Shown piece after piece: positions 1,255 through 62,600 of a stretch of 64,000 bases of DNA (positions within the stretch are counted from its first letter, which is position 1; the number at the start of each line of letters is the position of its first letter). Origin of the DNA: Symbiodinium natans. Taxonomy: Eukaryota > Sar > Dinophyceae > Suessiales > Symbiodiniaceae. The notes beneath the pieces are model-generated. The model saw only the letters and a list, made by a program, of their open reading frames with translations. It did no database searches and was not told the DNA's origin. Both the position numbers and the translations under genes were made by a program. The stretch lies in contig CAJNDS010000091.1 in NCBI GenBank assembly GCA_905221605.1, positions 77,001-141,000 on the forward strand, written 5' to 3'.

Positions 1255-1465
1255 GGATTTTCGTGTTTAGGGTTCTTAGGGTTTTTGGGGTTCTGTGAGT
1301 AGGTTTTTTCGGGATGGTGGTTTTAGAGCTTGAGGCTTCGTGGTTCTAGAGTTTAGGGCTTAGGGCTTCAGGTTTGTTAGGCTGTAGGATTGTAGGGTTT
1401 ACAGTGACAGCACTGAGTAAGAAAACATTGGTTTAAGACAACGAAAAACTGGACCAACAGCTTAG

Positions 1466-1567
1466 GAGTAACCTCGGAATAAAAAGGCCACCCTTTTTGG
1501 TTTAAGAGGGTTCATAAGGGAACCCAAACCCAAAAAAATAGAATAAGGGCCCAAGCTGGGTCCTAGA
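1466..1567. mobile_element. Introner-like short TIR element, family 1, copy A
   Basis: The copy reads GGAGTAACCTCGGAATAAAAAGG, then ACCCTTTTTGG, AAGGGAACCCAAACC, A-rich, AAGGGCCC and GGTCCTAG (segments joined here by short gaps). The same order of blocks is found in the intron of the PPR gene at 60975-61088, so this is an intergenic relative of that intron. The ends are imperfect inverted repeats. It has no coding capacity, so movement would need enzymes supplied in trans. Confidence 0.65.
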
Positions 1568-6929: not shown

Positions 6930-7117
6930 CTTACTTCTCCAATTACCACGGGAAGCAAAGGTTGAACTTGAATATTCCTACTAACCCTAAACCCTAAACC
7001 CTAAACCCTAAACCCTAAACCCTAAACCCTAAACCCTAAACCCTAAACCCTAAACCCTTCACCCTAAACCCTAAACCCTAAACCCTAAATAAGGGAACCC
7101 AAAAAGTTTAGAGTTGC
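6930..7117. mobile_element. Introner family 2 copy split by a telomeric array
   Basis: The left part (6930-6983: CTTACTTCTCCAAT, CGGGAAGCAAAGGTTGAACT, ATTCCTACTA) and the right part (7086-7110: AATAAGGGAACCCAAAAAG) together match the uninterrupted element that forms the PPR-gene intron at 60782-60886, where the two parts are contiguous. About 104 bp of CCCTAAA repeat separates them here, at a CTAAA motif that the intact copy has once. Confidence 0.75.
6984..7086 (-). repeat. CCCTAAA array inserted in a short TIR element
   Basis: About 14 heptamers with one CCCTTCA variant. Both junctions fall on a CTAA/CTAAA motif shared with the uninterrupted element copy at 60782-60886, so the block was inserted or expanded at microhomology. 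Confidence 0.85.
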
Positions 7118-9232: not shown

Positions 9233-9340
9233 AGAGTAGCCACGGAACAAAAGAGGGTACCCTTTTTGGTTGCAAGGCGGGCGAGAAGGGAACCTAACCT
9301 CTAACAAAAAGGGAAGAGGGGCCTACTCTGGGTCCTAGCA
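9233..9340. mobile_element. Introner-like short TIR element, family 1, copy D
   Basis: Ends AGAGTAGCC and GGCCTACTCT form an inverted repeat. The interior has AAAGAGGGTACCCTTTTTGG, AGAAGGGAACC and AAGAGGGGCC, then GGTCCTAG. This is the closest intergenic match in this window to the right half of the PPR-gene intron at 60975-61088. Confidence 0.65.
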
Positions 9341-11871: not shown

Positions 11872-12762
11872 AAAAGACCTAACTCAAGCTGACAGGTCCC
11901 TTCAGGTGTCTGGCGTTGGCTCAGGCAGCAAATGCCACAACACATCACCTCAAGATTTGCTTCAGGTTGGAGTGATTACAAACGAACTTCCGCAAGCTGT
12001 ATCCGATTCCATCCCCTAAGGCTCCAAACATCCCAAAGTAGGCATTCTTTGCAGACTTTAGAACCCAATGTAGGTGTTATTTGTATACTTGGAGCCCTAT
12101 AGGAATCTACTCTACGTACAGGAGCCACCATCCGAAAACCTGCGTTGGAGCATGTGGGACATGGGGCGACCTTCAGCAGATATTGAACCTGACCCTAAAC
12201 CCTGCGTGGTGTGCGGGGTCGGGGTGTAGAGCTGAGAAGTCTTACGCATTGAAGATGAACGGCCAGCCCCTTCAATGCCTCAGCATCTCTCACCGTGCGA
12301 ATTGGCACTGATTCTGCCTCTGGCAGTAAACGTCAATCGGGAAACTCTTAACACCCCACCCCTGCCCCGGAACCATAAACCCTTTACAATAAACCCCGAA
12401 TCAGAACGCAAGCCCCAAGTCCCAACTTGCCACCCGGGCTGCTGAGCCACCCGTACCGTTGATTCTTGGCACCCTACCCCAAACCCTGAACCCTAAACCT
12501 TAAAAACCTAAACACTACACCCTAAACCCTAAACCCTAAACCCTAGACCCTGAACCCTGAACCCTAAACCTAAAACCCCAAACCCTAAACCCGAAAACCG
12601 TAAACCCTCAACCACAAACCGCTCTCTGGATAGTACAGTGGGCCATCGATCCTTTGGTGTGCCACGTTTGGAGGACCCCAAGCCCTAAACCCTAAACCCT
12701 AAACGACAAACCACGTTTCAGGGAGCGCCCCGCATGGATGACAGCCGCCGTATAATTTGCAC
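11872..12762. other. Unique segment, degenerate telomeric run
   Basis: Mostly unique DNA. A degenerate CCCTAAA/CCCTGAA run occupies about 12515-12620. A 76-codon open frame at 12081-12311 is unrecognised and not called. Confidence 0.5.
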
Positions 12763-33248: not shown

Positions 33249-35009
33249 ATGCCTTCTCCCAAGCGATGGCTCCAACCTTCCTCGGATGGTGGACAGAATG
33301 GTGGAGCTGGAAGTGGTGCAGCTGAGTCTCTGGGTGAAAGGGCGGTGCTGGAAGAGGTAATGCCTGGCGCTGAGGAACATCTGGATGAAGCCTCGGTTGC
33401 AGAAGGCCCCAATGTGGGTATGAATCCCAATGTGGATATGGTTAGCAATGCTGAAGCTGAAGGACGAGCTGTTGTATCGCCAAAACCTGGGGAAAAGAGA
33501 AACTGGGACGCGACTGGCGGTATAGACCGTGAACTGGAGGTGACCGTTTTACGCGTGTTGCACAAGCATGGGTATCAGCCGTCGACCTCAACTTCGGGAC
33601 GAATGGTAGATCAAGGGTCTCAGACCAGTCTGAGTGGAGAAGTGCTGCAAGCTGCCAGGAGACCTCTGAACAAGATTAAAGGGGATCCCTCGGCGAGTTC
33701 CCTGGGTGGTGGAAGCGGTTATGAACAGAAGGGTGCGGACAGCTTTGAAGCTGCACCTGCTGCTGAATACGCCATGGGGGAGGAGGAGATCCTAGAGATG
33801 GAGGTTGAAAGGTTGCGCCAGTTGTCGGAAGAAGCGGATGAGATGCGCCAAGTCTCTGGAGTGGATGGTCTTCAGAAAGACGAGCATCTGGTTCAAGCGT
33901 GTGATGGGACAACTTGGGAGTGGCATATCCACGAAGATGGGAGACAGTATTACTACTGCCTGGATACGCAGGAAAGCAAGTGGACGTTGCCGGATGTAGG
34001 TGAAAAGGTGAAAAGCGACAAAGTGGCTGGGTCTCCTTCGGGCAATGGGCTGGAAGTGGAGACTGCACTGGGTCCTTCATCGACTACACCGACACCTGAG
34101 GCATTCCAGGGTAGTGTAAATAGTTTAGGTGAAAAATATTTTTCCTCTACTATTGGGGATAGCGGTCTTAGGGATGGTGGTGACGCCCAGACCTCGGGTT
34201 CTCCTGACGAGGAAGGAATTTCTGGATTCCGAGCAGACATGGCTGGAGAACATCTGGATCGGGAAGGAATGGAAGCACTTTCTGAGGGTGTCGCAGCGGT
34301 GAAATCTGTGGATCCGGTGGAAAAAGTTCCCAATGCGGAGGTGGATGCTGTGTCGGCTACAGAAGAGCGAGTGGTGGATGAGGTATCTGGCCTTCAGGAG
34401 GGTGGTCCTGAAGATCTGGATGACGGGGGGAAGAAGTCGTGCGTTACGACTGAGGAGGTCTCTCCGTTTGGTGCCAAGAATCCTGCCATTCAGGGGAAAA
34501 AAGAAGCTTCTGAAATAGCTGGAGACACGGTTGATCTGAGAGATGAGGCCTGGAGCGCCAATGAAGCGCGGGTCAATGTGCCAGATAGTACCTGGAGTGC
34601 AGAGAAAGCACGGGTTGAGGCGCATATGGTGTCACGTTCCGTGGATGACTGCAACAATGGGGCGCAGGTCTCCGTAGCAGCTGACGACGGAGGTTCACAG
34701 GTGGACGCACTGGTGCAGCCTGAAGTTAGCAGCGAGGAACGGAATGGCGAAGGCTACACCGGAGCCAATGTGGCAGCTGTGGTCAACGATAGTGGTGATT
34801 CTCTTTTGGAAACCATGGAGCCAAAGGAGCCTGCGGTGGAAGAAAATGCGCCTACCGCGGATGACCAATCCAACAGCCCTGTAGTGGAAGAAAATTTGCC
34901 TGCTGCAGAAGGTTTGACAAAAGACTCCAATGGTGGGTCCACTCCCAGGAAGGGGGAAGTATTTTGCCGTCTGAAAGCTTGCCGGAAGTCGACACCGAGC
35001 GAACTGTAA
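33249..35009 (+). CDS. Retroelement ORF1, acidic protein with a WW domain
   Basis: Starts at the first ATG (33249), 67 bases after the 5' LTR, and codes for 586 residues ending in TAA at 35007-35009. Mostly acidic and low-complexity. Residues about 180-200 (EEEILEMEVERLRQLSEEA) should form a short coiled coil. Residues 223-248 fit a WW domain: W225, then DGRQYYYC, W245 and P248, the tryptophan spacing, aromatic block and proline of the family. WW domains bind proline-rich peptides. The position suggests a Gag-like N-terminal product. A -1 frame that becomes ORF2 opens at 34865, so ORF1 overlaps ORF2 by 145 bases. No signal peptide or membrane segment. I do not recognise a named homologue. Confidence 0.8.
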   Translation: MPSPKRWLQPSSDGGQNGGAGSGAAESLGERAVLEEVMPGAEEHLDEASVAEGPNVGMNPNVDMVSNAEAEGRAVVSPKPGEKRNWDATGGIDRELEVTVLRVLHKHGYQPSTSTSGRMVDQGSQTSLSGEVLQAARRPLNKIKGDPSASSLGGGSGYEQKGADSFEAAPAAEYAMGEEEILEMEVERLRQLSEEADEMRQVSGVDGLQKDEHLVQACDGTTWEWHIHEDGRQYYYCLDTQESKWTLPDVGEKVKSDKVAGSPSGNGLEVETALGPSSTTPTPEAFQGSVNSLGEKYFSSTIGDSGLRDGGDAQTSGSPDEEGISGFRADMAGEHLDREGMEALSEGVAAVKSVDPVEKVPNAEVDAVSATEERVVDEVSGLQEGGPEDLDDGGKKSCVTTEEVSPFGAKNPAIQGKKEASEIAGDTVDLRDEAWSANEARVNVPDSTWSAEKARVEAHMVSRSVDDCNNGAQVSVAADDGGSQVDALVQPEVSSEERNGEGYTGANVAAVVNDSGDSLLETMEPKEPAVEENAPTADDQSNSPVVEENLPAAEGLTKDSNGGSTPRKGEVFCRLKACRKSTPSEL

Positions 35010-38000
35010 CAGATGAGGCAAAGCCATTGGCTGGAAAAGAGGATGGTCCTGAGCTCCAGGAGCACAAGGTGGATGAGCTTGTGGGACTCGTGGAGCAGGA
35101 CAAGCAGCTTGCCCCCAAGGTGGAAACAAGGGACGTTCCGGGAGCCGAAGAAACAATTCCGGTTTCTGAAGAACCAACGAAGAAAGTGCCCAAAGAGGGA
35201 GCCTTGGATACACCTGGGAAGCATTGCTATCAAAAGGGAGATCGGATCAATGGTCTAGTGCGCTGCATCAATGTACATGGAGCTTTTTTGGACCATGGCG
35301 ATATGAATGTACTAATTCCTGCGGAAGGGAAAGATACACCTCTTTTCAAAATTGGTGACACTGTCAATGGAACAGTGGAAAGGGTGGAAGATGATGGTAC
35401 CGTGATCTTGGACACCTTCCTGGTTTTGGAAGGGGATGAGGAGGACTCCTCTTCGACGCTGCGCAAATGGAAAGACAGCGGCTGGGGTACGTGGTGGACA
35501 GATTCATGGTACGCTGGTCAATGGTACCAAGGTTCCGACGGTCAATGGGACTGGAAGTCGGAAGAATGGCAGTCCCGCGAGTGGTTTGCCGATCCAGGAT
35601 TATCTTCTGAGGAACAAGAGGAAGCTGTGCAGAAGCAGCTCTATGGAGAAAAGATCTATAGAGCTCTTCTGGAGGATGAAAAAGCTGATAAGGCCTATGT
35701 GGGCAAAATCACTGGGATGTTGCTGAGTCGTCCAATAGACGAGGTTATGGAGTGTGTCGCAGATCATGCATTCCTGAACACTGAAGCTCGGCGTGCGTAC
35801 GGCATCTTGCAAAGTGATGGTTGGAAGCCCGATGGTACAGAATGTGCAGGCCTGGAAAAGACAATCACCTTTTCCCGAAAGCAGTACCACAACGCGCTCT
35901 ACGAACTGGCACGTAAGAAAAGGAGATTTAGTGGACCAGTCGTGGGTGAAGCGGTGGCAATGTTGCTAAGCCAAGGCAAAGATGAACTTTGGAATGCGCT
36001 TTGGCTGGATACCAAGCGGTTTTTGCAGGAGCTTGATGGCGCAGTTGAAGTTATGAGTAAGAGGGAAAACAAGCCAATGGAAGCCTACATGGATTCAGAT
36101 CGGTATAAGAAGGCTCACATGACGCCAAGAACTGTGTCACCAGGATACAGCAAGCTGTGCAAGTTCTTCAATCAGGGAAGGTGTCGCAATGGAGATGAGT
36201 GTTCCTATGAACATCGTCGTTATGGCGAAGGTTGGCCAGGAGGAGGACCAACTGAGCCAAAGAACAGCCAAAAAGCTGGAGATGAGGATGGGAACATTGG
36301 TGACCCTCCTACAGAGGAAGGCACGGTTGATGAGGCACAGCAGGAGCGGGAGGATTCAGCCTTCAGAGCCAAGTACAACTTTGGTAAAGGTGCATCAAAG
36401 GGTGAGCCTACGTTGGGTGAGCCAAAAAGGCAGCTGTGTCTGTATTACAATCAAGGTGGTTGCAAGTTTGGGAGTTCATGCAGGTATCTTCACGACGATG
36501 AAGTAGTATTGGAAGGGACTTGGGAACCCGGCAAAGCTTGGGACAATGCTTCCAGGAAGGCACTACGGGACGCAGGGTTCCACCATTGCTGTTTCGATTA
36601 TTACCTCAGAGGACAGTGCCGTAAGCGGTTCAATACTTGCAGATTTTCCCACGACGAGATGACAGATGAGCGGCTGGCGCACCTGAAACATTTGGTAAAT
36701 GTGGCCAATCAGGTCCGGTTTGAAAAAGAGAGAGGATTGGAGATTTCGGACAGGAGTACTTTTCAGCCACCTGCAAGTGGGGGAGCTGAATCTTCATCCT
36801 CCTCAGCACCACAAGCGTTGCAAATGACCAATGTGTCAAAGAAAGCAGGTGAGGTTGATATGCTGGATGGAGCAGATGGAGATGTACAAAAGGATTCGGT
36901 GGCAGAGTCTACCACTGTACGTCTTCAGAATCCAGAAGAGCCAATAGAAAATTGGATGGCTCGCAACCAACACTTGTGGGTGTATACACCTCACGTAAGT
37001 GACGTGATGATCAAGCTTGGTGTGACCAATGTCAAGGAGCTACAAGAGTATATCTTCGTGGAGGATTTGGTGGAAAAAGGGGTTAACAAGGTGACGGCCT
37101 GCAAAATTCTGCAATTGGTGGGTGGTGTCCATTACCGGCCAATGTCGCCGGATGTGGCTGTTTCTACCAACGCATCGGTACGCATGGAGCAATCTTCTGG
37201 AAGCCGGGAAGCTGGAAGAGGGGCGGTGAGAACTATCTCTCAGGTGCGTGAAGCTGAAGGTCCTGGTACAAAGGAGATGCCTCGAGGGTCTTATCGAGAG
37301 ATTTTCGACACAGGCAAGTTCCGTGACGCTTGGACGCTTGCGCAGAGGTCCCCGCTGTGCGTGCAGAGGTTGCGATTGGTGGGAGTTGGAATGCCACCGG
37401 TGAACCCGCCAACAAAGGCGTGTAGGTCAAGATCAAACCCTGTTAGACGGGGAAGGCCCTTGCTGGATCGGAAACAGGTGCGACTGGTGCCACGCTCTCG
37501 CTCACATCGGCGTGTGCAGCCGGCGGAGGTAGTGGAAAAGCCAAAGCCACTGGAACCGGTAAAGCCTCGTGGTGGTTTGTCGTATCCATTCAGCAGAGCG
37601 TGGGCAGATGTGGTGGATGATGATGATCAGACGGGAGCTCTGGTCTCCTATGCTGATTCCTCAGGTGATTCAAGCGAGGAAGAAACCAACAGCGCGCGAC
37701 ACCTGTGGGAAACCTTTTTGAGAGAAAGGGATTCACAAAAAACTGAGACAAGTGGCAATGTTCCACTTGCTGGTTCTTCAAGCTCCAATGATGGGCAGAA
37801 AAAATCGGTTCACCTTGGCGAAGAGCGCGACAAAGCGTCGCGGGGGGAGACCCGCCAAGAAGTGACTTCTCAAGTTTTTTCGCTACCACAACCTTCTCGT
37901 CGAACTGAGCAGTCTCAAAAAAGAGCAAGGGATGGCTCAGTTATAGTTGATTCGCTGGCGGTGGGCTCCACGGATGAGGTTTTACCTGGGCAAGGTGTTG

Positions 38001-41000
38001 CTGGACAGGTGAACGTATCTGAAAGCGCTCAAGTTCTACCTGGGCAAGATGTGGCTGGACAGGAGACGGCGCTGGAAGGAGCAGTACAAATTCCTGGCGA
38101 GGAGACTGACCAAAAAGAAGGAGAAGGTGGGAGCAATGAACTCCGTGGTGATGGTACGGAGATATTGGATGGTCTTCCGGTGAAGAAGGGCCATCAGCAA
38201 TTGCTTACCAAAGGCCTTCTGAATCGGATTTATTGGAAGGTTGCTGTCGGCAAGTTGCCTGTGGGGCAAAAGGACTGTCAGAAGGGGTCCAATAAAATGG
38301 ATCGAAATTTGGTTATTAGCATGTCATCCGAAGGTGCAAGCGAACAGGATTTGAACCTGGCACTGGTGGACGATGCTGATCAGTCAATGGATGATGGTAC
38401 ATTGGTGGTTACGGCGTATGACCCACGAACGCTGATTCAGTCGCCAACAACTGATTGGGTTACGCGTCGCGGTTTGACCGATCGTGCCATCTGGCCGGCA
38501 ATAGCGACTGCAGCGCAGAGGATATGTGCTGAAATGGTTCAAGTGGATGAACTGAATGCCCAGTTGGAGACTGGGAGACTCCTTTTTCAAAGGAGAGATC
38601 AAGGACATTATGGAGATTTGCATCATTCGTTCCATGAAGATCCGTGCTTGCCGGTGGTGGGAAATTATCCTCTTTCGGTGATGGGTGCATTGCTATCTCC
38701 TGGCCTGGAAAGGGAATTCAGAAATACTGAAAAGTTTGGAACTGCTATGGAGGCAATAGCCTACGATTGGAGTCGTAGTCCAGGCATGGAAGTACATGTT
38801 GAACTTATGGCGAGGGTAGCCAAATTGGTTGCTCCGTTCCTTACCCTAGGAGGCCAAGGGTTGGTGGTGAATTCAGAATTTCTCTGGCAGCGCGGGAGGA
38901 ACCAAATGATGGAGTTCCTTCAGGCGGCGACTTGTGCTGATCAATTGGAGGTTCTCTGGAAAAGGATGGACGACGATGCTGATGAGGAAGTGGATCCTTC
39001 AGGGATGGTGCTGGAGATCCCCGAACAGCAAGATGCGGTATTTGAGCAAGGGATCAATGAATCCCCTATTCCCATCGAAGATGCTGGAAGTGAGACAATT
39101 GGTGACACTGGAAGTGATGGCAAAGCGCCAGAAGTTTCTCCAGAAGAGGAGACATCCAGTGGTTCGTCAAGATTGGCTGGCGCCAGAATGTTCTTGTGGT
39201 CGGTGTATTCTCGTGTCGCTTCCAACTGGGATTTCTCTATGCAGGACCGCGCTACGGGTAGGATCTTTGACAGCACGAAGGGGTATCCTGGTGAAGGACC
39301 GGACAATGGTGACGATTTTTCCTCTAAGAGGAACTTACCCTGGATCTCTGAAGATTACCTCGACGAAGTGGTGTCAAAAAAGATGGAAAGGTCTTCAGAT
39401 ATGGATGGGTTGAATGGGTTTGTTCCGGAAAGTGAGGGACAGTCGGAAAGGGTAGAGGTGGAGAATGTTACTGCCTCTAGAATTCTTATGGCTCTTTGGA
39501 AAAAGGGATATAGAGCTGGGTATAGGAGGTTGTGTCGTTCAAATGTATCTGGACCCAAGGTTGGAGCAATGAATCATCCAATCAAAAAGGTGCGGAAGAT
39601 CGGCACTAGAAAGGCCTTCTTGAAAACGTTCAATGTTTTTGGATCGTCTCAGAATGGCTCAGGAGCTGGTGGGAAACCAATCATGAAGGTGATAGGACCA
39701 AGGCCAGGTTTTCCAGCTGTTCTTGATGCATCAAACATTGATAGCACCTTGGGTAAAAAAGGTAGTTCTCCAGATCATGGCAATGTCCATGTAGTGCGGG
39801 ATTGTTCGATGGACCGTCTTGAAGCAGAACGTTTGTCAAAAAGGAGACAAGGTATCTGCTATTGGTTTGCAAAAGGGAACAATCGCTGCAAGTTTGGTGA
39901 GAACTGCAAATTTATTCATTCCAATGATGATGTGGTGCTGCAATCGTATTGGTGCAAATATTATGTGGCTGGGAGACACTGCTACGCTGGAGAGGACTGC
40001 AAGTTCTCTCACGACGCAACTGGTGTAAGGTGTATCCAGTTTGCTCAGTCTGGGAAGTGCCGTCATGGGGACAGGTGTGTCTTTGAGCATGGTGATCCGC
40101 TGGATGAACAGAGGCCAAGGTCTCCAAGGACGCCCCCAAGGGATGGTCCGCGGAGGAGTACTGGTACAAGAAGTGGAGGAAAGGAAATTTCTCCTGAACG
40201 GTATGATGAAGATGATGAGGATTTGATGGGGTACGACGACGACACCAGGATGATAGAATTGCTGATGGAGGCAATTTCTTACATGTCTGATGGTAAGTCA
40301 GATTTGGCCCGCGCGGAAGCGGATCCGGTGTTTAAACTTTTAAAGTTCAATGGAGATGCTGACCAAATGGACGCAGAATGGTGTTCATGGACTACTGGCA
40401 TGCTGTCTTCATTGGAACTTCACGAGGTAGTGAAGTCATATGAGATTCCACTGGTGGAGGTTGAAGAGTGGATCGATGATTTGAGGATATGGTTCCAGCG
40501 AGCCAATATGAAAGAAGAGAGAGATCCAAAAAGGGACAAAAAGAGGTCCCTAGAAAGGGAGTCCAGTAAGGATACTCCTGCCAAAAAGGAGGTGGTTGGA
40601 ACTTCGGAGACGGATGTTGCCGTTGAAGAAGAGGTGAAAAAGGCCAAAAAGAAGAGGAAAACTGCTGCAAGTGAGGATCCATACACTCTTCTGGTTCCAA
40701 AGCCGAAGAAGATGCCGGTGAACATTGAGAAGGGTGGATCATCATCCAATGCGGTGGTATCTGGAGGGGAAAAGGCCTCTTCGAGAATGCGCACCAAGGC
40801 AAGCGTCTCGGGAAAGACGAAAAAGAAAGAGAAAAGTCAAAGCCCCAAGAAGGAAGAGGTGGTAGTGGTGGAAGGTCCTGAAGAAAAGGATCGTCCTTCT
40901 GAAGTGGATGCGCAGTCATCTACCACTGTTAATGCAGAACTGGGACAATCCTGCCAAGCAATTGAGGACGCAAAGAGAGAGGGGTTGGTATCCTCAATTC

Positions 41001-41104
41001 AAAGGTGTGTGCAAGATCCTGTTCTTACAGTGTCGGACCTGGAGCACGTTTTGCTGCGACTTCACCTAAGCATCGATGCCCATCGGAAGAAGAAGAAGGG
41101 ATGA
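34865..41104 (+). CDS. Retroelement ORF2, giant RNA-binding protein (S1, two MLLE-like, six CCCH)
   Basis: Open in the -1 frame from 34865 to TGA at 41102-41104. The first ATG (35303) lies inside the S1-like domain, so translation probably comes from ORF1 by frameshift or splicing. Numbering here counts the TTG at 34964 as residue 1. 88-155: S1/OB-like, GAFLDHGDMNVLIP. 160-205: Trp-rich. 246-285: KITGMLL, the signature of the MLLE (PABC) domain of poly(A)-binding protein, which binds PAM2 peptides. 327-365: second MLLE-like copy, VAMLLSQGKDEL. CCCH fingers start at C399, C492, C543 (CX7-8CX5-6CX3H) and again at C1632, C1664, C1690. 660-715: helical, perhaps SAM-like. 820-880: Arg-rich. About 1880-1905: Lys-rich, nuclear-localisation-like. 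No pol motifs found. The intact 2 kb-codon frame argues against decay. Probably a Gag-type RNA-packaging protein (inference). Confidence 0.8.
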   Translation, partial: PIQQPCSGRKFACCRRFDKRLQWWVHSQEGGSILPSESLPEVDTERTVTDEAKPLAGKEDGPELQEHKVDELVGLVEQDKQLAPKVETRDVPGAEETIPVSEEPTKKVPKEGALDTPGKHCYQKGDRINGLVRCINVHGAFLDHGDMNVLIPAEGKDTPLFKIGDTVNGTVERVEDDGTVILDTFLVLEGDEEDSSSTLRKWKDSGWGTWWTDSWYAGQWYQGSDGQWDWKSEEWQSREWFADPGLSSEEQEEAVQKQLYGEKIYRALLEDEKADKAYVGKITGMLLSRPIDEVMECVADHAFLNTEARRAYGILQSDGWKPDGTECAGLEKTITFSRKQYHNALYELARKKRRFSGPVVGEAVAMLLSQGKDELWNALWLDTKRFLQELDGAVEVMSKRENKPMEAYMDSDRYKKAHMTPRTVSPGYSKLCKFFNQGRCRNGDECSYEHRRYGEGWPGGGPTEPKNSQKAGDEDGNIGDPPTEEGTVDEAQQEREDSAFRAKYNFGKGASKGEPTLGEPKRQLCLYYNQGGCKFGSSCRYLHDDEVVLEGTWEPGKAWDNASRKALRDAGFHHCCFDYYLRGQCRKRFNTCRFSHDEMTDERLAHLKHLVNVANQVRFEKERGLEISDRSTFQPPASGGAESSSSSAPQALQMTNVSKKAGEVDMLDGADGDVQKDSVAESTTVRLQNPEEPIENWMARNQHLWVYTPHVSDVMIKLGVTNVKELQEYIFVEDLVEKGVNKVTACKILQLVGGVHYRPMSPDVAVSTNASVRMEQSSGSREAGRGAVRTISQVREAEGPGTKEMPRGSYREIFDTGKFRDAWTLAQRSPLCVQRLRLVGVGMPPVNPPTKACRSRSNPVRRGRPLLDRKQVRLVPRSRSHRRVQPAEVVEKPKPLEPVKPRGGLSYPFSRAWADVVDDDDQTGALVSYADSSGDSSEEETNSARHLWETFLRERDSQKTETSGNVPLAGSSSSNDGQKKSVHLGEERDKASRGETRQEVTSQVFSLPQPSRRTEQSQKRARDGSVIVDSLAVGSTDEVLPGQGVAGQVNVSESAQVLPGQDVAGQETALEGAVQIPGEETDQKEGEGGSNELRGDGTEILDGLPVKKGHQQLLTKGLLNRIYWKVAVGKLPVGQKDCQKGSNKMDRNLVISMSSEGASEQDLNLALVDDADQSMDDGTLVVTAYDPRTLIQSPTTDWVTRRGLTDRAIWPAIATAAQRICAEMVQVDELNAQLETGRLLFQRRDQGHYGDLHHSFHEDPCLPVVGNYPLSVMGALLSPGLEREFRNTEKFGTAMEAIAYDWSRSPGMEVHVELMARVAKLVAPFLTLGGQGLVVNSEFLWQRGRNQMMEFLQAATCADQLEVLWKRMDDDADEEVDPSGMVLEIPEQQDAVFEQGINESPIPIEDAGSETIGDTGSDGKAPEVSPEEETSSGSSRLAGARMFLWSVYSRVASNWDFSMQDRATGRIFDSTKGYPGEGPDNGDDFSSKRNLPWISEDYLDEVVSKKMERSSDMDGLNGFVPESEGQSERVEVENVTASRILMALWKKGYRAGYRRLCRSNVSGPKVGAMNHPIKKVRKIGTRKAFLKTFNVFGSSQNGSGAGGKPIMKVIGPRPGFPAVLDASNIDSTLGKKGSSPDHGNVHVVRDCSMDRLEAERLSKRRQGICYWFAKGNNRCKFGENCKFIHSNDDVVLQSYWCKYYVAGRHCYAGEDCKFSHDATGVRCIQFAQSGKCRHGDRCVFEHGDPLDEQRPRSPRTPPRDGPRRSTGTRSGGKEISPERYDEDDEDLMGYDDDTRMIELLMEAISYMSDGKSDLARAEADPVFKLLKFNGDADQMDAEWCSWTTGMLSSLELHEVVKSYEIPLVEVEEWIDDLRIWFQRANMKEERDPKRDKKRSLERESSKDTPAKKEVVGTSETDVAVEEEVKKAKKKRKTAASEDPYTLLVPKPKKMPVNIEKGGSSSNAVVSGGEKASSRMRTKASVSGKTKKKEKSQSPKKEEVVVVEGPEEKDRPSEVDAQSSTTVNAELGQSCQAIEDAKREGLVSSIQRCVQDPVLTVSDLEHVLLRLHLSIDAHRKKKKG
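34892..34898 (+). promoter_or_regulatory. Candidate -1 ribosomal frameshift site AAATTTG
   Basis: In ORF1 phase the sequence reads GAA AAT TTG, so A AAT TTG fits the X XXY YYZ slippery pattern (XXX=AAA, YYY=TTT). It lies inside the overlap of the two frames (34865-35009) and a -1 slip enters ORF2. RSV uses the similar AAAUUUA. I could not confirm a downstream pseudoknot. Splicing is the alternative. Confidence 0.45.
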
Positions 41105-58348: not shown

Positions 58349-59923
58349 GGATGAGCACACACGGCCGTCACTCAGCCGACCATGCAGATGTCCCCGTTAC
58401 CTGCATCGGCGCCTTCGGTTTTGGCATTTCGGGTTTAGGGGCTAAGGCTTTGGGGCTTATACTACCCTAAACCCTGACCTTATAAACCCTTTGTTTCATG
58501 TTAGGAACCCTGACAAGCCATGACCCGAAAGCCTAGACGCTAGACCTTAAGACCTTAAACCTCCATAGACCCTCTAAGCGCCTTATGAAACCCATGAAAG
58601 CGCACATTTCCGAAATCGCCCCAAAAAAGCCACAAACCAAATAAACCTTAGACCCTCAAATGGGGTGTGAAGGCTTAGGGGTCTTATTTCTATTTTGTTT
58701 AAGAACCCCCCCCCCCCCCACCCCCTCCCCACAAAAAATCCCTATAAGGGCAAGATGGGGATTATTAAACTTTTTGGTGGTGTTCTTAAGCAAACAGTAG
58801 AATTGTGGGCTTGGACCAAGCCTTGCGTCTTTAGGGATTAGAGTGACGGTCTGGGGTTTCGAAAATTTCAAGCTAGGGTTCAGGAGTCCGCGGTTGAGGC
58901 CTTTCAGTAGGGCTTTGGTCTTGGGCTCCTAGGAGGAGCTTTCCAAACCCTAAACCCTAAACCCTAAACCCAAAACTCCTAACCCTAAACCCTAAACCCT
59001 AAACCCTAAACCCAAAACTCCTAACCCTAAACCCTAAACCCTAAACCCTAAACCCTAAACCCTAAACCCTAAACCCTAAACCCTAAACCCCTTAACCCTC
59101 AAGCCAAGGAGCTCCAAACCACTACCCGGAGGTTCAGGGGTACTTCTAAGTACCGGTAGCCCAGAAACCCCACCTTTGTAGGGGTCCCTTCTTTTGACTT
59201 CCTTATATCTCCCCTTGAAAAAGGGCAGGTTGTTACAGGTAGGGTTATGAGTTTTGGGAAGAACCTTATTTAGGATACTTGGAACGCGACTTGTAAGCAG
59301 CCATGAACCTCCAAAGTCGAGCTCTAAACCATGAAGCACCAAACCCTAAACCCTAAACCCTAGACCCTAAACCCTGAACCCTAAACCCTAGAGGCCCTAA
59401 ATCCTAAACCCATCGCGCCTTGCCCAGGTCGGATCTCGCAGACAGCTCCGGAGGTTCATGGGCACTTCGAGCCCCAATTATAAGTCTTTGGGTTTCAGGG
59501 TTTAGGGTTTAGGGTTTAGGGTTTAGGGTTTAGGGTTTAGGGTTTAGGGTTTTTAGGGTTTAGGGTTTAGGGGGGGGGGGTTTTAGGGTCTACCGTACTT
59601 ATAACTTACTTAGGGGGCTTTAAAAAGTGTAGTTAGAACTGGGGGGGGGGGGGGGGTTAGAAGTCTACTCATAACCTACTTAGGGGACTTAGGGGGGCCT
59701 ATGAGTGCAGATGTATTTTGGGGTTCTAAGTACCCATGAACCTCCAAGAGGGGATCCGCCTCAGGACCAATAGGTGCTCCTCGACCATTCCTGGAGTGGT
59801 CTTGGAGGTTTAGCCTGACCTCAAATCCTATTTTGGGGTACTTTGGAATCCACATGAGAGTTTGGGGTGTTAGGGGTTTCGGGTTTCAGTGGTTAAGGGT
59901 TTTAGGAGCTCTGGGCTTCAGGG
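58349..59923. other. Telomere-repeat mosaic, no gene
   Basis: CCCTAAA array at 58945-59093 with two AAACCCAAAACTCCTAACCC interruptions, CCCTAAA at 59340-59395, TTTAGGG at 59497-59570. G runs at 59572-59581 and 59641-59656 and a C run at 58707-58721. Family 6 and family 5 ends are intermingled at 59127-59320, suggesting one element inside another. Confidence 0.5.
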
Positions 59924-60144
59924 ATAGGATGGCCTGTAAAATCCTCTGAAAACATATTCCTGGATATGAATCCTCCTAAACCCAATAAGGGAAGATGTGT
60001 AAAATGTCCCAAGGGCCTATCCAGGAGCGCTTCTGGGTTGCTGATCTCCACAGCCTCCAGGACAGACCGCCCGCCTTGCGCGACTTCATACTGCAGGATG
60101 TCGTTTGTAGATGACAAAGTGAAGCGGCTAGGAACAGCCGTCAA
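59902..60144 (-). other. Possible 3' continuation of the PPR gene in another frame
   Basis: Minus-strand frame reading PLTAVPSRFTLSSTNDILQY, then GRSVLEAVEISNPEALLDRP. It overlaps the last codons of the PPR frame and is offset by one. The composition looks protein-like up to ALLD, after which the short TIR element at 59924-60022 begins. A one-base indel or a further intron could join it to the PPR gene. I could not find a convincing splice pair. Confidence 0.35.
59924..60022. mobile_element. Short TIR element, family 8
   Basis: Left GGATAGGATGGCCTGTAAAA; right is the complement of GGATAGGCCCTTGGGACATT. Interior CCTCCTAAACCCAATAAGGG matches 55085-55130. It lies just beyond the last PPR-like coding sequence. 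Confidence 0.55.
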
Positions 60145-62600
60145 AGGCCAGCTGTAAGAAATGCTCCTATGCCAATGGTGTAGCTCGCCTGGTCGGGCAC
60201 AACTCTAGCTGCTGTCATCTGTGAAAACAAGTGGAGGGACATCTGCCATTCACCCGCCTTGTCACAAGCACTAGTGCAGGCATTGAAACTGAACACGTTT
60301 GGCACAAGTCTGGCCGTCCACATACGCGACAAAAGGCCCATGGCCATCTGCCATTCACCAGCCGCCTTACATGCGCAGATTGCAAAATTGAAGCTGAGCA
60401 CGTCTTGCGCGACTCTGTATAGAGGCATCTGCCCTAACAAATGCAGGGCCGTCTGCCACTCGCCACCTTTCAAGCACGCCATGATGCCAGCGTTGAAGTA
60501 GATCGCATCTGGCACAATTGTAGAGTTTGGTAGCTGCGATATCAGCTGCAAGGGCACCTGCCACTTGCCGCGGCTAATTTCACGGTCACTGATGCCTGCG
60601 CTGAAGCTGAGCATGCTCTGTGCAAGAACAAGCAGGGCCACTTGCCACTCGCCATCTGTCTGACACGTGCTGATGCCGGCACTGATGCTGAACACGTCGG
60701 GCACTACTCTGGCTGCCGGCATCTGCGAGAACAGCTGCAACGGCACTTGCCAGTCTTTGCTTTTCCCACAGGCGCTGATACCTTGCTTCTCCAATAGCCA
60801 ACGGGAAAAAAGGTTCAACTTGAATGTTCCTACTAAATAAGGAAACCCAAAAAGCTTAAAGTTCGACTAAAGGCGAAGTAAGATACTGGAGTTGAAGCTG
60901 ATCACATCTGGCAGGGGTCTGCCGATCATCTGCATTTGCGCCAGCAAACGCAGGGCAACTTGCCATTCACCAGCCTAGACCCGGGAGTAACCTAGGAATA
61001 AAAAGGGTACCCTTTTGGTTTTAAGGGGATTATAAGGGAGCCCAACCCTAAAAAGAGGAAAAAAGGGCCTACTCCCGGTCCCAGCAGCTCTCTGGCATGC
61101 GCTGATGCCAGCATTGAAGCTGATCACATTTGGTACGGCACTGGGTTGTGACGTTATCGACAACAAGCGCAGGGCCATCTGCCATTCACCAGGACTATCA
61201 CAGGCGCTTATGGCGGCACTGACGGCGACCGAATTTGGCAGAACTCTGGCTGCCGGCATCTGAGAAAGCAGTTGTAGGGCCATCCGCCATTGAGCACCTT
61301 TCGTGCATGCACTGATGCCAGCACTGAAGCTAAACACATTGGGTGTGTATCTGTGGGTCGGCATCTCAGAAAGCATCAGCAGGGCCACCTGCCATTCACC
61401 ACCTTTCTCACATGCGCTGATACCAGCACTGAAGCTGATCACGTCTGGCACTACTCTGTCTCTTCGCATCTGCGAAAGCAAATGCAAGGGCGTCCGCCAC
61501 TCACATCCTTTCTCGCAGGCACTGATGCTGGAATTGAAGCTGATGACGTCTGGCTCTGCAATAGCTACGTGCATCTGATCTAACAGGTGAAGGGCCATCT
61601 TCCACTCCCCTCCTTCCTCACATGCGCTGATGCCAGCATTGAAGCTGATCACGTCTGGCTGAAGTCTTTCAGTCAGCATCTGACATAACAAGCCCAGGGC
61701 CACCTGCCATTCGTGCTTGCATGCGCTGATCGCGGCATTGAAGCTGACGACGTCTGGCGAAATTCTATTTGTCGGCATCTGGGCTAACAAGTGCATGGCC
61801 ATCCGCCATTCACCACCTCTCTGACATGCGCTGATGCTGGCGTTGAAGGCGATCACATCTGGCACGACTCTTGCTATCCTTAGGTTAGCAGGGAATGAGG
61901 GAATTCGGCCCCTTTATCCACCCTTTTAAAGGATTATATAGGGCATCTCCTTCCCCCTTTCCCTATTAACCAACAGCAAGTGTCGGCATCTGCTCTAGTA
62001 AGTGCAGGGCCATAATCCAGTCACCGCCCTGCTCACACGCGCTGATAGCGGTACTCATGCTGACAATGTCTGGCACGAGCCCGATACTTGGCATCTGCGA
62101 TAAAAGGTGTAGCGCCATCTTCAATTTGCCTCCTTTCTTACATGCATTGATACTGGCGTTCCAACTGATCAAGTCTGGTGATACTCTCGAAGTCGCCATC
62201 CGTGCAAGCAAACGAAGGACATGATGCCAACGCAGGGTTTTCCCACAAGCTGTGATGGCGGTGCGGAAGCCCAAGACAGTGGGTAGGACGCTGACTGCGA
62301 ACACGGCTTTCAGTACCTGGAGTGCAGCTTTCCACTCTCCGGCTCTTGTACAGTCAACGAGAACCTAGACTGAACTCGTTACCCTTGCAAAAATTAGTAA
62401 TCGCAGCTCTTCCTTAGGGGTTCTATTATAGTGACCAAACATTACAAAACTGCTTCCAAGCACCCCTAGGGAACGTCCTTAAACGCGTCATCCAGCGGCA
62501 CAGTTGGCAGCAGGCGCAGAGCAATCCGCAAGTCATGACTTCGGCAGACTGCAGCGATCACAGGAGGGAGGCCCGTTGTCTTGCGATCAAGGTCTGGCAT
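60141..62600 (-). CDS. Pentatricopeptide repeat (PPR) protein, five exons
   Basis: About 18 tandem PPR units of 35 residues of the form VPDVISFNAGISACEKGGEW-(Q/R)MALHLLSQMP. PPR proteins bind organellar RNA base by base and act in mitochondria or plastids; the RNA target cannot be read here. Proposed exons (minus): 62600-62475, 62364-61985, 61878-61089, 60974-60887, 60781-60141. All junction phases agree (0, 2, 0, 1), and every junction restores normal repeat register, e.g. VPLDDAFKD+VLVDCTRAGEW, QMPIARVVPDV, ISACQRAGEWQV and ISFNSSISACGK. The start ATG at 62600 is the first in frame, 15 bases inside a TIR element boundary, so an upstream exon with a transit peptide may be missing. The stop at 60143-60141 cuts the last repeat, so the 3' end is doubtful. 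Low-level expression cannot be judged. Confidence 0.8.
60782..60886 (-). mobile_element. PPR intron 4 = introner family 2 (GT-AG, 105 bp)
   Basis: Removed as GTATCTTACTTCG...GAGAAGCAAG it joins AACTCCA to GTATCAGC in frame. GTATC occurs at both splice sites, like a 5-bp target duplication. Ends CTTACTTCGCC and GGAGAAGCAAG are inverted. An intergenic relative lies at 6930-7117. Confidence 0.8.
60975..61088 (-). mobile_element. PPR intron 3 = introner family 1 (GC-AG, 114 bp)
   Basis: Spliced from GCTGCTGGGACC to GGGTCTAG it joins CAGAGA to GCTGGTGAATGG (R-A-G-E-W). GCTG is repeated at both sites. Ends GGACCGGGAGTAGG and TTACTCCCGGGTC are inverted repeats. Intergenic relatives at 1466, 8665 and 9233. 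Confidence 0.8.
61879..61984 (-). mobile_element. PPR intron 2, introner-like (GA-AG, 106 bp)
   Basis: Spliced from GACACTTGCTG to AACCTAAG it joins CAGATGCC to GATAGCAAGAG, giving QMPIARVVPD with normal repeat spacing. GA donors are known in dinoflagellates. GGTTAATAGGGAA and TTCCCTGCTAACC inside are inverted. A GT-AG alternative (61874-61970) stays in frame but adds three residues. Confidence 0.65.
62365..62474 (-). mobile_element. PPR intron 1, introner-like (GT-AG, 110 bp)
   Basis: Spliced from GTTCCCTAGGGG to CAGTCTAG it joins AAGGAC to GTTCTCGTTGAC. GTTC is present at both sites. The joined product aligns with the 20-residue inter-helix segment of other repeats without a gap. A shorter acceptor at 62413 also keeps frame but leaves an in-frame TAG. 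CCTAGGGGT and AACCCCTAAGG inside form an inverted repeat. Confidence 0.65.

Follow-up and report, generated by a model that had tools for sequence, protein, structure and literature searches.

Four probable introners in a PPR gene of Symbiodinium natans

A minus-strand PPR gene of Symbiodinium natans is broken by four inserts that are very probably introners: small, non-autonomous DNA transposons with terminal inverted repeats (TIRs), which inserted into PPR exons and would be removed by the spliceosome. Sequence comparison makes a strong case for introns 2 and 3 being introners, a good one for intron 4, and a weaker one for intron 1. Introns 2 and 3 are demonstrably copies of dispersed TIR element families with 4-bp target-site duplications (TSDs). 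The gene lies in a window of 64,000 nucleotides (contig CAJNDS010000091.1, positions 77001-141000; C91), which is the whole stretch of DNA analysed here, and the genome assembly comprises 759 Mb in 2543 contigs.

Results

Reading frame and gene product

Excision of the four inserts (110, 106, 114, and 105 bp; Table 1) leaves a 674-aa frame open across five exons, and every one of the inserts introduces a stop when left in. The restored frame bears out an initial annotation, made from the sequence alone, which had proposed that they break a single PPR reading frame. Compared with Pfam, the 674-aa product matches PPR_2 (E 3e-68) and PPR_3 (1.7e-43), and tandem 35-residue PPR repeats are present (PF13041, 226 bits with a cut-off of 30, nine stretches). 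The predicted gene product is a PPR protein. Weak Pfam matches of the same product to ATP-grasp_4, TPR_7, and Flu_B_NS1 were taken as spurious. A protein search returned 724 matches, with Polarella and Symbiodinium among the homologues. Neither a near-identical protein nor an empty-site orthologue was found among the 120 homologues listed of the 724, where the top identity was 53%.

Two features adjoin the gene. A 100-aa frame at 59902-60204 (minus strand) overlaps its end, is partly coding-looking (..DILQYEVAQGGRSVLEAVEISNPEALL..), and may represent a further exon. Upstream, an imperfect inverted-repeat element at 62737-62611 (minus strand; ATACCCAGAGAGCCCAATACCCC .. GGGGGCATTGGGCTCTTTGGGTAT) ends, by eye, ∼10 bases before the PPR ATG. 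Elsewhere in the window, a 2079-aa ORF at 34865-41104 (plus strand) contains CCCH zinc fingers and an MLLE domain. Its 20 listed relatives are 67-93% identical over parts and are all unnamed ENA proteins, some of which represent many member sequences; the ORF is likely a multi-copy or mobile gene.

Table 1. Predicted gene structure and element relatives in the window (window coordinates).
Feature	Position	Strand	Basis
PPR gene, from the ATG at 62600 to the end of the stop codon at 60141; five exons, 674 aa spliced	60141..62600	-	open frame and Pfam
Exon 1	62475..62600	-	frame, register score
Intron 1, 110 bp, GT-AG, GTTC repeat at 3' side	62365..62474	-	register, homologue bridging
Exon 2	61985..62364	-	frame, register score
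Intron 2, 106 bp, GA-AG, target repeat GACA/GATA	61879..61984	-	family ends, bridging
Exon 3	61089..61878	-	frame, splice ranking
Intron 3, 114 bp, GC-AG, target repeat GCTG/GCTG	60975..61088	-	family, TSD statistics, bridging
Exon 4	60887..60974	-	frame, register score
Intron 4, 105 bp, GT-AG, target repeat GTATC/GTATC	60782..60886	-	TIR shuffle, relatives, bridging
Exon 5	60141..60781	-	frame, splice ranking
Intron 3 relative, 82% identical, surrounded by stops in each of the three minus frames	1465..1551	-	
Intron 3 relative, 78% identical, surrounded by stops in each of the three minus frames	9234..9340	-	
Intron 4 relative split by TTTAGGG array, TGTAC on both sides (by eye)	6930..7115	-	
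Intron 4 relative	48028-47936		sequence similarity in window

Placement of the splice junctions

The initial annotation had paired GT, GA, GC, and GT donors with AG acceptors, every junction then fitting the register and phase of the 35-residue repeat. We ranked G[TCA]..AG pairs by an ungapped 35-residue PPR register score, and the proposed pairs came first at all four introns (1/120, 1/55, 1/39, and 1/54 for introns 1-4). At intron 2 the GA-AG pair scored 67.5, and a close rival GT pair 62.4. Two other rankings were discarded. Whole-protein HMM ranking placed the pairs at 1, 12, 1, and 2, was unstable, and was replaced by the register score; an earlier splice ranking gave 1, 2, and 3 for introns 1-3 and left the intron 4 pair unscored, its upstream window including intron 3. 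All four candidate introns end in AG, and the next base is G.

The 120 listed homologues provide a further measure, since ungapped bridging of the proposed junctions was seen in 16, 110, 116, and 89 of them for introns 1-4. Four rival pairs at intron 2 were bridged by at most 21 of the 120. Among the candidates rejected there, a canonical GT donor 14 bases downstream was bridged ungapped by 4/120, compared with 110/120 for GA-AG. Three rival pairs were tested at intron 3, one of which was bridged by 88/120 against 116/120 for the proposed pair, and three at intron 4, which were bridged by at most 3/120 against 89/120. The intron 1 junction is less certain than the others because only 16 homologues bridge it and one of three rival pairs, with a donor 27 bases upstream, is bridged by 16 as well. 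In silico excision restores the host frame exactly, less securely at intron 1. Programmed frameshifts were discounted, as the inserts are ∼110 bp long and carry stops, and a search of the window for catalytic introns or other RNA families gave no Rfam match at gathering score.

Introns 2 and 3 as members of element families

Intron 3 is a 110-bp copy of an element family of ∼112 bp with the ends CTAGGACCGGGAGTAGG..GGTTACTCCCGGGTCTAG. A genome-wide search gave 3350 first-look candidates, the best 40 of which were scored. These 40 places include the PPR gene, and the 39 others are 91-95% identical; in 21 of these 39 the match starts at base 5, right after GCTG, and most matches reach the final AG. 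The corresponding search with intron 2, in which the best 40 of 614 candidates were scored, produced 47 matches at 40 places including the PPR gene, with the 39 others 79-86% identical. Seven places match on the opposite strand too because the element, which is ∼106 bp long and has CTTACTG..CAGTAAG ends (CTTACTGTTGG..CCAACAGTAAG), is palindromic.

Element ends were mapped at 30 sampled loci per family, the PPR gene included, and both ends were located in 29 of 30. The four bases on either side of the element match at 0.69-0.83 in the intron 3 family and at 0.62-0.69 in the intron 2 family, and between copies at 0.25-0.32. Exact 4-bp flanking repeats are found at 11/29 and 6/29 copies, respectively. 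Beyond the four bases, agreement is at the background level in the intron 3 family and, in the intron 2 family, slightly above it on the downstream side. The matched flanking bases are a target-site duplication lying at the donor position set by the reading frame, and the edge of the element likewise coincides with the splice sites so placed.

Target repeats in the gene

The repeats flanking introns 1-4 are GTTC/GTTC, GACA/GATA, GCTG/GCTG, and GTATC/GTATC. That such direct repeats are target duplications had been suggested from the outset, and the suggestion is upheld by the family TSD statistics for introns 2 and 3 and by the exact repeats for introns 1 and 4. Among random G[TCA]..AG pairs on the minus strand of the window, spaced at 100-120 bp, a 4/4 repeat occurred in 60/4438 and at least three matching bases in 453/4438. 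Three 4/4 repeats and one 3/4 repeat would have a probability of ∼1e-6 if independent and if the choice of junctions is ignored.

At intron 2 a weaker 'GA-A' repeat had been noted. By eye it resolves to GACA/GATA, one substitution apart, beside a 5-bp TIR deletion: this copy lacks five bases of the 3' TIR (family ..TAACCAACAGTAAG, here ..TAACCTAAG), so that the element ends at TAAG and is followed by GATA. The automatic end finder put the 3' end of this copy five bases farther on than the by-eye alignment. The duplication had further been proposed to supply both splice sites. This holds for the 5' site; at the 3' side, the AG belongs to the element and forms its terminus, so that what the second target copy contributes is the base after AG rather than the acceptor.

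Copies outside and inside reading frames

In a frame test, the element and one target copy were excised in silico, and a sense frame of at least 150 aa was required across the join. Such a frame was found at 3/58 sampled copies, namely the two of the PPR gene and one at locus L015. The remaining copies, 27 from the intron 3 family and 28 from the intron 2 family, had sense frames of at most 131 aa, and since 55 of the 58 copies lack a long frame, both families act like small TIR elements. Among these 55 copies, G[TCA] opens the target in 6/27 and 5/28 cases (11/55 together). In this small sample the elements seem to insert regardless of splicing, and the copies surviving in exons would be those with a splice-competent target, a filter drawn from the same few loci.

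At L015 (G000:C1761:74879-74993), excision with a GC donor (GCTG/GTTG) gives a joined frame of 380 aa versus 191 unspliced. This Ala/Glu-rich frame holds the second copy of the intron 3 family found in an exon, and downstream it runs into what looks like another related element. The two exonic sites seen for this family have the same orientation. Antisense frames of 179 and 198 aa were observed at L021 and L067, two of the 55 copies without a long sense frame.

Introns 1 and 4

For the TIR test the target copy was taken off and the arms were 35 bases long; against shuffled sequences, p was 0.000 for both intron 2 and intron 3 and 0.01 for intron 4. At intron 1 no clear TIR was detected, the local score being no better than shuffles (p 0.68). 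An earlier version with bare inserts and 50-base arms, in which shuffles reached the observed score in 629, 2, 60, and 114 of 2000 trials for introns 1-4, was replaced because the 35-base, target-removed test was clearer. Predicted RNA folds pair the ends of introns 2, 3, and 4, and only intron 2 clearly beats shuffles (z -3.2; introns 1, 3, and 4 gave -0.5, -1.0, and -1.4).

Intron 4 has TIR-like ends (CTTACTTC..GAAGCAAG) and diverged relatives at two places in the window (Table 1) and at L081, another PPR gene, in a 149-bp junction. No relative of intron 1 was found in the 359 kb examined, overlaps counted. The elements of introns 2-4 start with CT and end with AG, and the element of intron 1 starts with CCT. 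The initial annotation had called all four introner-like. For introns 2 and 3 that reading is supported by recurrence at 40 scored places each, with TIRs and 4-bp TSDs, and it extends to intron 4 on its ends and relatives. Intron 1 is the least secure and was not firmly filed as an introner because its TIR score does not exceed that of shuffles.

Junctions in other PPR genes

The 120 homologues were used to scan 28 loci of this genome (L001-L008 and L069-L088), some of which overlap and one of which (L074) is not a PPR gene. L073 and L075-L088, L074 excepted, had been picked for short open frames, so the sample is non-random. After merging of duplicate placements there were 16 interruptions in 9 loci, 15 of which gave candidates (L078 at 571 gave none). 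Two-intron rows (L081, L082), a same-frame row in 13 proteins (L081), and 3-protein rows (L078, L085) were left out. In each of the 15 interruptions, protein match decided which G[TCA]..AG pair was taken as the junction.

As a group, the 15 junctions appear to share the anatomy of the four inserts. The mean repeat match at positions 2-4 was 1.73 for the 15 chosen pairs versus 0.73 for 402 rejected pairs (p 3e-5), and perfect 4-bp repeats flank four junctions, at L070, L081, L082, and L085 (110, 110, 124, and 110 bp). G follows AG directly in 13/15 chosen versus 158/402 rejected pairs, and CT stands at intron positions 5-6 in 10/15 versus 37/402 (p 2.6e-7). The five junctions lacking CT include the 149-bp one of L081 and three poorly resolved ones (L080, L084, and L086 at 1843), two of which also lack G after AG. 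Introns of 209-327 bp still carry CT at positions 5-6. TIR matching beat shuffles (p < 0.05) in only 1/11 of the other PPR introns tested.

Segments ∼75% identical to the L070 intron element family occur in the window at 60028-59925 and 55137-55041 (minus strand), the former adjoining the PPR gene stop on its downstream side. TTTAGGG telomere-like arrays are found in non-coding window sequence (e.g., 7084-6985 and 62980-62900) and also within introns of other PPR genes.

Discussion

The anatomy of the four inserts suggests the following route. A transposase, presumably made elsewhere, would insert the element into an exon, and integration would duplicate 4-5 bp of the exon target. If the target opens with GT, GC, or GA, its 5' copy could then serve as donor and the terminal AG of the element as acceptor. 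The exon would resume with the second target copy, and splicing would thereby restore the original codons. An acceptor AG would be available in either orientation, since the elements of introns 2-4 have CT at the start and AG at the end. We infer that the inserts are spliced in RNA and that intron 1 belongs with the other three.

The main rival is a dying PPR pseudogene that collected unspliced MITEs. The lack of a sense frame of at least 150 aa at 55/58 sampled copies makes insertion look indiscriminate, no near-identical protein appears among the 120 listed of 724 matches, and one PPR repeat near residues 540-560 looks shortened. Against this stands a complete 674-codon frame, open once the inserts are removed. 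All four targets are G[TCA], a regularity that is partly built in, as the junctions were chosen by that rule, but that at introns 2 and 3 is also fixed by the family ends; among copies outside long frames such targets are the minority (11/55). Similar anatomy recurs in other PPR genes as well, and we consider a pseudogene unlikely.

More improbable still is that some inserts, chiefly intron 1, are ordinary older spliceosomal introns whose repeat reflects the AG|G boundary or chance. Intron 1 does lack a clear TIR, or relatives in the 359 kb examined, and random pairs yield 4/4 repeats at the frequency given above (60/4438). However, introns 2 and 3 can be shown to be copies of elements, and intron 1 shares with them its length, AG|G, and an exact repeat, GTTC. 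Assembly artefacts or chimeric joins, in favour of which nothing was found in this draft assembly, can be given next to no credence, given that each site holds an unrelated element family with its own target repeats and that similar patterns occur on other contigs. Introners remain our strongly favoured account of the four inserts.

A wider reading is held tentatively, and we would sooner doubt it than rely on it: the outer anatomy of many introns in this lineage may be that of transposon ends, GNNN-CT..AG-GNNN. If so, the spliceosome would read TIR ends and a free G[TCA] target with no extended 5' consensus, and the GT/GC/GA donors and AG|G acceptors of dinoflagellates would be a fossil of insertion. 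Should the pattern hold genome-wide, it would give a simple account of these odd splice sites and a handle for detecting introners without transcript data. Its presence in longer introns is, in our view, what most merits further attention.

Introners as a phenomenon have been described before; the PPR gene looks a clear fresh example, a view that is well supported. Its value lies in showing, base by base within a single gene, how transposable elements can become introns: the inserts include three mutually dissimilar element families, with three donor dinucleotides from the target and the acceptor from the element. The introners of Micromonas and Aureococcus (Huff et al. 2016) are reportedly TIR transposons turned introns, one of whose splice sites is provided by the target duplication, and are said to differ from those of the PPR gene in lineage, length, and target duplication.

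The sections cited here report GT/GC/GA donors with AGG acceptors at 96-97% for Symbiodiniaceae and Polarella (PMC10666404) and GC/GT/GA donors for S. microadriaticum (PMC5177918), and gene models of other Symbiodinium were built with GA donors permitted (PMC8045281, in the part cited). The closest likeness is to the introners of Symbiodinium microadriaticum, which, as described in the relevant part of Gozashti et al. 2022 (PMC9860276, Fig. 2B), have TIRs, 4-bp target duplications, an element-borne 3' site, and a 5' site from the target duplication. The likeness is one of described anatomy, and the PPR gene uses three donors, GT, GC, and GA. According to the same part of that paper, TIRs occur in 72/177 assessable introner families and hence are not required. 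Dinoflagellate genomes with many introner families each (Roy et al. 2023, as summarised in part of a review, PMC11453091) are alike by description, and that section of the review puts the number of recent introner introns in Polarella glacialis at 12,253. The introner elements of Amoebophrya share inverted repeats at the intron ends and direct repeats of 3-5 nt, but differ in their many non-canonical splice sites, as described in the cited portion of Farhat et al. 2021 (PMC7789003), whereas the introns of the PPR gene keep to G[TCA]..AG|G.
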